NCBI GenBank assembly: GCA_023247445.1
Contig: JAHFGL010000016.1
Location: 1 to 32,264, forward strand
Origin: Candidatus Omnitrophota bacterium
GTDB lineage: Bacteria > Omnitrophota > Gorgyraeia > Zapsychrales > Zapsychraceae
Direction: 5' to 3'
DNA: 32,264 bases
A model generated the notes under the pieces. It was given only the letters and a program-made list of their open reading frames with translations. It was not told where the DNA came from and did not search any database. A program made the translations under genes and the position numbers. This document shows positions 27,998 to 30,571 of the stretch, in pieces (the first letter of the stretch is position 1; each line of letters begins with the position of its first letter).

Positions 27998-29821
27998 ATG
28001 ATGAGTAAGAAAAAAGTTTTAGTGTGGATTGTTTTCGCAAGTTTGCTGGCTATTTCGATTCTCACCAAGATTGTTAGTCCCAAAATTATCGAACAGTGGT
28101 ATTCCCAGGGAAGTTTTGGAATTCTTAATAAGCTAACTCACGCGTCAGAGAATCTTGCCCTTGAATTTTATTTAGGACGGATAGAAGAAGTTTTCTTTGG
28201 CCCGATTAGCATGCTGGCCTCAGGGCTCGCGTTTCTCTTAATTAGTTTTGCCTATCTAAAGAAATCCTCAGGAAAAGTTTTCGGCGTAGCGGTATTTCTC
28301 TATTTATTAATCACTAAATTTGAAATTTTATTTTTCCCTCCATATGGTGACTCCGCTAGTGGTCCATTTGTCGAGGCGATCTGGTTACTGCGAAATAATT
28401 TTGATTACGGCGCCTTGGCTCATCAACCTAACTTTGTTTTGGGTGGACCAAAAGTCTATTTGATTTCGATTTATCCAACCTTTGAAGCACTCCTACTTAA
28501 ATTCATTACTTATAAGCCGTTATTTATTTCAATTAACCATCTGATTGTCTTTGCCTGGGCCGCGATGGTCATTGTCTACTTTAGAAAGATTCTGTTGAAA
28601 GTTTGTGATGAGAATATTGCGTTACTGATGAGCTTTTTGCTTTTAGCGTATCCGTTATTTCAAAGCCAAGCTGAGCAGATCAACATGGAAATGCCGATGT
28701 TATTATTCGCGGTGTTGTCGATGTATTTTTTAAGCAATAAGAGAATATTTTTAGCCGCTGTATTTGCGATGCTGGCCGCTTTGGTTAAAGGCGTTGGTGT
28801 CGCCATTTGCCTGGCGGCGCTTGTTATGAATTGTTTTCTTTTTTTAATTGAAAATAATAAAAAGCAAAGGATAGAAATCTTTTTCTCCAATTTGCTGTTA
28901 GCAAGTTTTGTAGCCATCATGGTGTATTATGCGAAGTTGATTTTAAGTGAGCAGGGAAGTGTCAGTTTGGTTGGATATTTTCAAGGTTGGACGGAGATGA
29001 AGCGTTTAGCTGTTCCTTATTTATATGCAATCGCGTGTTTTCTTTTCCTTGGAAAATTTTTAATTGATAAATTTCAGAAGATTCCAGGGGCCTTTATTGC
29101 GTTTTTAAAAGAGCATTATGTGGCGCTCACGATGTTTGCCGCTGCTGGCGGGTGGTTTGTTGTATTTATTAATTCTGCCGGACAGATGTGTCGGTATCGA
29201 TTGCTTCTTTTGCCATTTATATTCTTCTGTAGCTTTGTTGCCGCTCAGGTTTTGGTCAAATGGACGCGTGTACTTATGGTGGGGCTCTTTGTTTTGATTA
29301 TTCTTTGTTTCATTAATGCGTATGGTGTTTTTTACACGCCCCATCCAATCAGTATTCATTCGGCTTTAGAACGCAGCCTTGAATATCGTAATGACCAAAA
29401 GGTTCAATTGAGGATAGCGAAAGAAATTGAAGAAAAATTTTCAGAGTTTACCATAGGCGCTCAATTTACAATTGCCCAAGTGTTAGCGTTGCCGGAATTA
29501 GGATACGTTCATAAAAAGTTGGATGTGATGATTTACGAGTTTCCGTGTACGTATGGGATCAGAGTGTTTAAGGGGGTTAGTGAATTGGATCTTCGTAAAA
29601 CACTTTGGGTTGGGTTTGAGATGAATTTACCACCGCAAATGGCTTCCTTAAAAGGTTATCCTGTTAGCCCAAATGATTTTATTGTAGCAAAAATTATCTT
29701 TGGGAATCGGCAGGCTACACTATTTATTGGGGGAGAATATATAGAGAAGATACGGATGTTTGTTTTGCAATCAATGAGGCTAAGGAAGCTTCAGGAATAT
29801 ATGCTCAAACAGCATAATTGA
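27998..29821 (+). CDS. Polytopic membrane protein, GT-C glycosyltransferase-like, paralog C of three
   Basis: YGDSASGPFVEAIWLLRNNFDYGALAHQPNFVLGGPKVYLISIYPTFEALL, PLFQSQAEQINMEMPML, LERSLEYRNDQK, GYVHKKLDVMIYEFPCTYG. ATG at 27998 preferred over TTG 27968. Confidence 0.75.
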   Translation: MMSKKKVLVWIVFASLLAISILTKIVSPKIIEQWYSQGSFGILNKLTHASENLALEFYLGRIEEVFFGPISMLASGLAFLLISFAYLKKSSGKVFGVAVFLYLLITKFEILFFPPYGDSASGPFVEAIWLLRNNFDYGALAHQPNFVLGGPKVYLISIYPTFEALLLKFITYKPLFISINHLIVFAWAAMVIVYFRKILLKVCDENIALLMSFLLLAYPLFQSQAEQINMEMPMLLFAVLSMYFLSNKRIFLAAVFAMLAALVKGVGVAICLAALVMNCFLFLIENNKKQRIEIFFSNLLLASFVAIMVYYAKLILSEQGSVSLVGYFQGWTEMKRLAVPYLYAIACFLFLGKFLIDKFQKIPGAFIAFLKEHYVALTMFAAAGGWFVVFINSAGQMCRYRLLLLPFIFFCSFVAAQVLVKWTRVLMVGLFVLIILCFINAYGVFYTPHPISIHSALERSLEYRNDQKVQLRIAKEIEEKFSEFTIGAQFTIAQVLALPELGYVHKKLDVMIYEFPCTYGIRVFKGVSELDLRKTLWVGFEMNLPPQMASLKGYPVSPNDFIVAKIIFGNRQATLFIGGEYIEKIRMFVLQSMRLRKLQEYMLKQHN

Positions 29822-29900: not shown

Positions 29901-30268
29901 GCGCCCGCCATTTTTCTGTTAGAAAAATGACTGGCGCAGATTGTTAGTGTTGCGCCCGCCCTTTTACTGTTAGAAAAATGACGGGGTTAAATTGTTAGTG
30001 TTGCGCCCGCCCCAATTTTTCTATGAATGTTTTAGTTGAAATTGGGACCGGCTTGATTTTTCCTGGATATTTAATATTGAAAATCTGCGCCCATAGCTCA
30101 ACTGGATAGAGCATCAGCGCTGGCTTACAATAAAATAACAAATATTTATTTGAAAAAGACAGCGCAGCACCAACTACAATACAAAATTTTAGGGAAGTTG
30201 GTGTTGGCTTCGGATCAATGTAGCAGTTAATGCGCCCGTCCTTTTACTGTTGGTAAAAGGACGGCCGC
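29901..30268. repeat. Upstream hairpin units (GCGCCCGYC + stem-loop) interspersed with a tRNA-Arg-like fragment
   Basis: Units at 29901-29937, 29952-29986, 30003-30052 and 30232-30268 start with GCGCCCG; the 22 nt direct repeat attgttagtgttgcgcccgccc occurs at 29940 and 29991. Confidence 0.75.
30087..30218 (+). pseudogene. Interrupted, incomplete tRNA-Arg-like copy
   Basis: gcgcccatagctcaactggatagagcat (30087-30114) matches tRNA-Arg 30333-30360 with one mismatch. An 89 nt insert of two hairpins follows (30115-30203), then ttggcttcggatcaa (30204-30218) matching the anticodon arm. No T-arm or 3' acceptor strand. Confidence 0.7.
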
Positions 30269-30284
30269 TAATCTTTCTTAATGT

Positions 30285-30313
30285 TGTCTTTGCATCTGTT
30301 GGATGCAAAGACA
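30285..30313 (+). repeat. Perfect 12 bp hairpin with TGTTG loop directly upstream of tRNA-Arg
   Basis: TGTCTTTGCATC-TGTTG-GATGCAAAGACA. Confidence 0.85.
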
Positions 30314-30332
30314 TTTATAGTTATTGAAATTA

Positions 30333-30406
30333 GCGCCCGTAGCTCAACTGGATAGAGCATTTGGCTTCGGACCAAAGGGTTGGGGGTTCGACTCCCTCCG
30401 GGCGCG
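30333..30406 (+). tRNA. tRNA-Arg (anticodon TCG)
   Basis: Cloverleaf read by eye: acceptor GCGCCCG/CGGGCGC, D-arm GCTC/GAGC, anticodon arm TTTGG-CTTCGGA-CCAAA, T-arm GGGGG-TTCGACT-CCCTC, discriminator G. CCA not encoded. Confidence 0.93.
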
Positions 30407-30571
30407 TTCTTCCACAAAATAAAAAAAATAAAACGTTCAGAAAAGAACGCGCCAGTCGTTTTGCATCAGCAAAACGGCGGGCAATCGTTTCAAAATAATT
30501 AATCGGTTGCGAGAAAAAAACGCGCCAGTCTTTGCTTTCATAAAGAAATTAGAAAAGCAACGGCGGACGCG
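30402..30571. repeat. Downstream hairpin units (GCGCCAGTC + stem-loop + GGCGG), inverted relative to the upstream units
   Basis: gcgcgttctt/aagaacgcgc (30402-30411/30443-30452); cgttttgc-atca-gcaaaacg (30457-30476); cgcgccagtc repeated at 30448 and 30521; ttgcttt/aaagcaa (30532-30538/30554-30560). Confidence 0.75.

Follow-up and report, generated by a model that had tools for sequence, protein, structure and literature searches.

Mobile hairpin elements at tRNA genes in some Omnitrophota bacteria

Small palindromic repeats that move without coding capacity have been described from several bacterial and organellar genomes. In Yersinia, the YPAL/RU-2 palindromes are non-coding mobile elements of a single ~168-bp sequence, for which empty and filled sites are known, that insert at or next to dyad symmetry with target duplications of 3-26 bp (PMC2229807). 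Rickettsia palindromic elements (RPE; 105-146 bp) are known for insertion in protein genes but also occur in the RNA genes for tmRNA and RNase P RNA, with target duplication unsettled and no nested replacement gene described (PMC2229807). YPAL/RU-2 and RPE are the closest bacterial elements found. Closest in form are the repetitive and double hairpin elements of mitochondria, which are mobile as single, double and multiple hairpins between and in genes; in sponges their stems are the conserved part, and in Allomyces they lack flanking duplications (PMC2800124). REP/BIME sequences, associated with RAYT transposases, are short imperfect hairpins with mismatches, occur as paired and mirrored units, are likely moved as single-stranded DNA, and have conserved stems with a GTAG foot and no target duplication. 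YPAL/RU-2, RPE and the mitochondrial elements are not described in these sources as having variable arms with a constant loop, a CNG target or tRNA cargo, and for YPAL/RU-2 no tRNA association is described there. Here we report hairpins of about 40 bases from Omnitrophota that combine these features. Literature searches, within an open-access library only, found no description of such elements in Omnitrophota or of nested tRNAs of this kind.

The analyzed window comprises 32,264 nt (positions 1 to 32,264, forward strand, of contig JAHFGL010000016.1, assembly GCA_023247445.1) and lies on a 47-kb contig of a 2.29-Mb Candidatus Omnitrophota assembly. Between a long reading frame without a Pfam match (ending at 29821) and gcvT (30676) lie the hairpins, a broken tRNA-Arg copy and an intact tRNA-Arg(TCG). 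The best matches of gcvT are Omnitrophota MAGs at 57-65% identity, several with tRNA-Arg(TCG) just upstream of gcvT. An earlier note, made from the sequence alone, had described four stems with TGTTR loops and mirrored borders around this tRNA, and these were all present at the positions it gave; its observation is confirmed. It had missed that the TGTTR pentaloop represents one subfamily, most units having a ~16-22-nt loop TTCTRRAT...TTRTGG; that a truncated tRNA-Arg remnant, itself interrupted by hairpins, lies within the array; that the borders are CNG triplets (tRNA nt 5-7 and their complement at the 3' end), which give the mismatch seen in the stems; and that the same modules occur at many other tRNA genes of this genome.

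Reading the sequence with CNG triplets as boundaries resolved most of the array. On the plus strand, it begins with unit A (29901-29937), GCGC-CCG-[CCATTTTTC-TGTTA-GAAAAATGA]-CTG-GCGC, identified from the sequence and an inverted repeat search, followed by unit B (29952-29988), a degenerate copy of unit A within a 51-nt direct repeat of 86% identity. The acceptor module of the remnant tRNA (30003-30090, plus strand) reads GCGC-CCG-hp1(30010-30047)-CCG-hp2(30051-30090), with a match to the covariance model R1 introduced below at 30010-30050. The remnant comprises a tRNA-Arg 5' part (30087-30117, GCGCCCATAGCTCAACTGGATAGAGCATCAG, 91% to the intact tRNA) and an anticodon arm (30204-30218, TTGGCTTCGGATCAA, 93%), both detected as direct repeats on the plus strand. 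Inserted between them are two hairpin units (30118-30203, minus strand) separated by CAG (30165-30167), with an R1 match at 30165-30203 on the minus strand. The module upstream of the intact tRNA starts with GCGC-CCG-hp1(30239-30261, TGTTG loop)-CGG (30232-30264, plus strand), an inverted repeat with paralogous hairpins at tRNA-Arg(ACG) and tRNA-Arg(TCT). It continues with hp2 (30265-30336, plus strand), whose arms GCTAAT/ATTAGC carry the leader and the first tRNA bases and whose loop holds a side hairpin at 30285-30313 (TGTTG) that also occurs at tRNA-Arg(CCT) and tRNA-Arg(TCT). The right arm of hp2 holds the tRNA leader plus nt 1-4, and the following CCG (30337-30339), the boundary triplet, is nt 5-7 of the intact tRNA-Arg(TCG) (30333-30406, plus strand; ARAGORN; Rfam RF00005, 67.4 bits), the only Rfam match above the gathering score in the window. 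Downstream, the arrangement is mirrored, with hp2' followed by hp1' (30399-30480, minus strand), as CGG-[GCGCGTTCTT...AAGAACGCGC]-CAG-[TCGTTTTGC-ATCA-GCAAAACGG]-CGG, because the 3' acceptor strand is the complement of the 5' one; this explains the inverted orientation on the two sides and the equality of the border with the acceptor strand, both of which the note had pointed out. A second downstream unit, GCGC-CAG-[30529-30563]-CGG-ACGC (30522-30570, minus strand), contains an R1 match at 30526-30563.

To place the array in its genomic context, we read all 45 detected tRNA genes of the assembly with their flanks; elsewhere in the genome, only search hits and the stretches around them were inspected. 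The 200-nt tRNA flanks hold 94 hairpins with stems of at least 8 bp against 15.4 (range 10-22) in dinucleotide shuffles, although overlapping flanks of clustered tRNAs count a few hairpins twice. A 7-nt copy of the tRNA's own 5' acceptor lies upstream of 12 of 45 tRNAs (permuted mean 0.55, maximum 4). Exact inverted copies of the 7-nt acceptor are not enriched upstream, because the triplet is CNG rather than the true complement. A test of the leader/tRNA junction instead, chosen after that failure, revealed an inverted copy of at least 8 nt upstream of 11 of 45 tRNAs (0.67 expected). Modules upstream of many tRNAs, including the tRNA-Arg(TCG) of the window, carry a hairpin whose arms copy the tRNA's own leader and first 3-5 bases. 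Fifteen modules from several genomes show the same two-hairpin anatomy, with hp2 ending inside the first tRNA bases; a few of them have other loops. Loops of the two hairpins in one module are only slightly more alike than loops of different modules (0.52 versus 0.48), so local duplication of the unit is not shown, although one module, upstream of a tRNA-Asn gene in genome G156 (locus L280, from position 1500), has nearly identical loops on unrelated arms; this gene also carries a group I intron match (RF00028).

Twenty-seven hairpins were aligned (alignment A1) to build R1. In the own genome, R1 finds 52 matches at E<=0.01, 40 of them within 400 nt of a tRNA, but the model was trained there, mostly on tRNA flanks. 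In the related genome G030, not used for training, 5 of 10 matches lie near tRNAs (P=8e-8). The unit is a ~35-50-nt hairpin with a conserved loop and arms that vary freely but stay complementary: over 132 matches, the stem shows 282 double-changed pair cells (86.7 shuffled; best slide control 69) and a covariation of 0.717 (0.249 shuffled). In the 54 matches from relatives, none used in training, there are 37 different arm sequences and 129 double changes against at most 58 in 500 shuffles, and CNG triplets flank the units on both sides here too. The alignment of matches (A2) is fitted to the model and leans towards its structure, and the hairpins of A1 were picked as hairpins, meaning that pairing as such is partly built in; the variety of arms is not. 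G-U pairs make up 0.65% of cells, compared to 5.7% in tRNA acceptor and T stems of the same genome, which suggests that complementarity is kept at the DNA level, or is recent, rather than kept by RNA selection. The note had named the absence of further copies, of covariation beyond chance and of TGTTR loop conservation as grounds for rejecting its idea; when examined, further copies and covariation were found and a loop is conserved, although the commoner loop is not TGTTR.

Evidence for past mobility came from stand-alone copies and empty sites. Stand-alone copies, of which Rfam searches gave sub-threshold matches only, sit in intergenic DNA and inside other palindromes, without tRNAs. Typical forms contain two units (76 bp) or three (112-113 bp), the arrangement being CNG-[a l a']-CNG-[b l a']-CNG-[b l b']-CNG; copies with tRNA cargo are longer. 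Only two elements have true empty-site comparisons; the joined flanks of loci L208 and L224 were left out of the search. In G030 near tRNA-Leu, CCATAGCGG[113 bp]CGGCAAGATT is CCATAACGGCAAGATT in genome G011 and nearly so (one extra A) in genome G031, revealing a CGG duplication. Also in G030, a 76-bp element sits in a repeated palindrome at TTCGTT-CG[...]CG-TCG with a CG duplication, while copies of that palindrome at four sites of genome G029 and one site of G011 are empty (loci L234 and L245 being the same place). A ~100-nt repeat (CTCCTCACTTCGTTCGTCGTATCTTCTTTGCTGCATAGGAAAGG...), seen at L231, L234, L235, L239 and L244 in G029 and G011, has many copies in one genus and serves as a host site for the hairpins. 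In the own genome, a second palindromic repeat, GTCATYCTGAG...CGAAGRATCTC, is widespread (L191, L192, L194, L196-L199) and contains inserted two-hairpin units. Two copies of a larger composite palindrome in the own genome (L184, L185) hold a three-unit element at the same place, so composites may move as a whole. With dozens of dispersed, non-coding copies under 200 bp (apart from those with cargo) and target-site duplications, the family resembles bacterial MITE-like repeats. The ends are complementary, but no autonomous relative was found and genes beside stand-alone copies, read by eye, do not look like transposases, leaving undecided whether terminal inverted repeats are shared with an autonomous transposon.

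A systematic search identified six tRNAs lying inside a split copy of the same tRNA (scores 73-106; null maximum 49 in 120): Val-CAC, Cys, Leu-CAG and Arg-TCT in the own genome, Val-TAC in G030 and Arg-ACG in genome G021. Inner and outer tRNAs share the anticodon; when rejoined, four outer copies were read by ARAGORN as tRNAs of the same anticodon as the inner one. Most insertions show duplicated CAG, CTG or CGG triplets, for example GTCTCAG[...]CAGAAGCC in Leu-CAG, GCTCAG[...]CAGCTGG in Val-TAC and ACCGG[...]CGGTTC in the Cys T arm, while the Cys D-loop insertion, which holds the inner Cys gene, has no clear CNG duplication. In most of these, the inner tRNA occupies the loop of the middle unit of a three-unit form. 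Some outer copies are decayed (Val-CAC, Arg-ACG of G021 and the remnant in the window) and others intact, as expected if they lost their task at different times; comparison with relatives did not show whether the inner or the outer copy is the resident. A tandem rather than nested case was found at L039 (own genome), where an intact tRNA-Pro(CGG) is followed by a second, broken tRNA-Pro(CGG) with hairpin units inside. No tRNA-Glu(TTC) was detected in the assembly, although tRNA-Glu(CTC) is present; a test for an interrupted copy found nothing; possibly there is an assembly gap.

The distribution is patchy. Matches occur in 9 of 32 genomes of the same family at E<=0.01, in 5 of 154 across the phylum under stricter filters and in none of 20 genomes outside it, the last set lacking a positive control. 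Because R1 is trained on one genome, the counts are lower bounds; tRNA flanks of genomes G018, G019, G021 and G022 and of locus L151 show modules by eye that R1 counts partly miss.

We consider it likely that the array consists of copies of a non-autonomous, MITE-like mobile hairpin family of Omnitrophota. What the data demonstrate is a family that has moved, with a conserved loop and variable complementary arms, whose units lie singly or as two- and three-unit forms at CNG (sometimes CG) sites, duplicate that site where an empty site or an interrupted tRNA allows a check, favor tRNA genes while others lie in other palindromes, and include same-anticodon tRNAs within some inserts. Beyond this, we infer that the units move as folded single-stranded DNA recognized through hairpin shape and loop by an enzyme we did not find, that arms are kept complementary, and at the acceptor site newly written, by fold-back copying of flanking DNA, and that insertions at essential tRNA genes survive because an intact same-anticodon tRNA lies inside the element or because the arm next to the gene re-supplies the leader and the first tRNA bases; the order of events is likewise inferred. 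Arm rewriting rests on the acceptor modules, and selection or gene conversion after insertion could give the same pattern. The interpretation in the earlier note is partly supported: its first suggestion, a tRNA-associated mobile hairpin family, is supported by the dispersed copies, empty sites, target duplications and covariation, while a structured RNA precursor is not supported as the main cause and a recombination-site array is not supported, since insertions have their own short target duplications. No cassette genes, as would accompany an integron attC array, lie between the hairpins in the window; integrases were not searched for.

Among alternative explanations, all of which appear unlikely, REP/BIME-like repeats moved by a RAYT-type Y1 transposase retain the most plausibility, given four Y1 transposase genes in the genome, imperfect hairpins and mirrored pairs. 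However, target duplications and a constant loop with variable arms contrast with REP sequences, and the four Y1 loci carry no R1 hairpin; they lie by the different palindrome GTCATYCTGAG, similar palindromes being seen beside the Y1 genes in L200, L202 and L203. Slightly less likely are structured leaders and trailers of tRNA precursors, with hairpins selected as RNA for processing, stability or control of tRNA maturation and the inverted acceptor copy competing with the true acceptor strand. The regular position next to tRNAs and the strong covariation agree with this view, and the complement of leader plus nt 1-4 could pair with either copy, but the near absence of G-U pairs, the stand-alone copies away from tRNAs, the empty sites with target duplication and the many orthologous tRNA-Arg genes without any module argue against it. 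Replication template switching alone, producing quasi-palindromes by fold-back errors at tRNA genes, would fit the inverted and direct copies of local sequence beside tRNAs and the nearly perfect arms with few G-U pairs; the process may still shape the arms, but the shared loop motif in unrelated places and genomes, the fixed unit sizes and the empty sites with C(N)G duplication need a defined element. Hairpin introns spliced from the RNA, so that outer and inner tRNAs both work, are the least likely, because although several outer tRNAs (Leu-CAG, Cys, Val-TAC) still form good cloverleaves despite 10-20% divergence from the inner copy, others have decayed (Val-CAC lost G1G2, Arg-ACG of G021 has a changed T-loop, the copy in the window lost its 3' third) and the clear interrupted tRNAs come with an intact same-anticodon copy, no RNA data having been examined for removal of the inserts.

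A more far-reaching possibility, which we regard as tentative and less likely than not, is an element whose inherited part is essentially only the loop. In this view, the arms are rewritten at insertion as an inverted copy of flanking DNA, so that the element adapts to the tRNA it enters and regenerates the 5' end of that tRNA, while some copies carry a whole replacement tRNA inside the tRNA they interrupt; it would be a new class of mobile DNA with built-in repair of its target. Relative to other small palindromic mobile repeats, the family is unusual for its inferred arm rewriting and its tRNA cargo. It would add a patchily distributed class of very small mobile DNA that targets tRNA genes and survives there through same-anticodon tRNA cargo or rebuilt acceptor ends. 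It bears on how tRNA genes are duplicated and replaced and on how palindromes keep perfect arms while changing sequence, and the rule of variable arms with a constant loop gives a testable case of hairpin copying at the DNA level.
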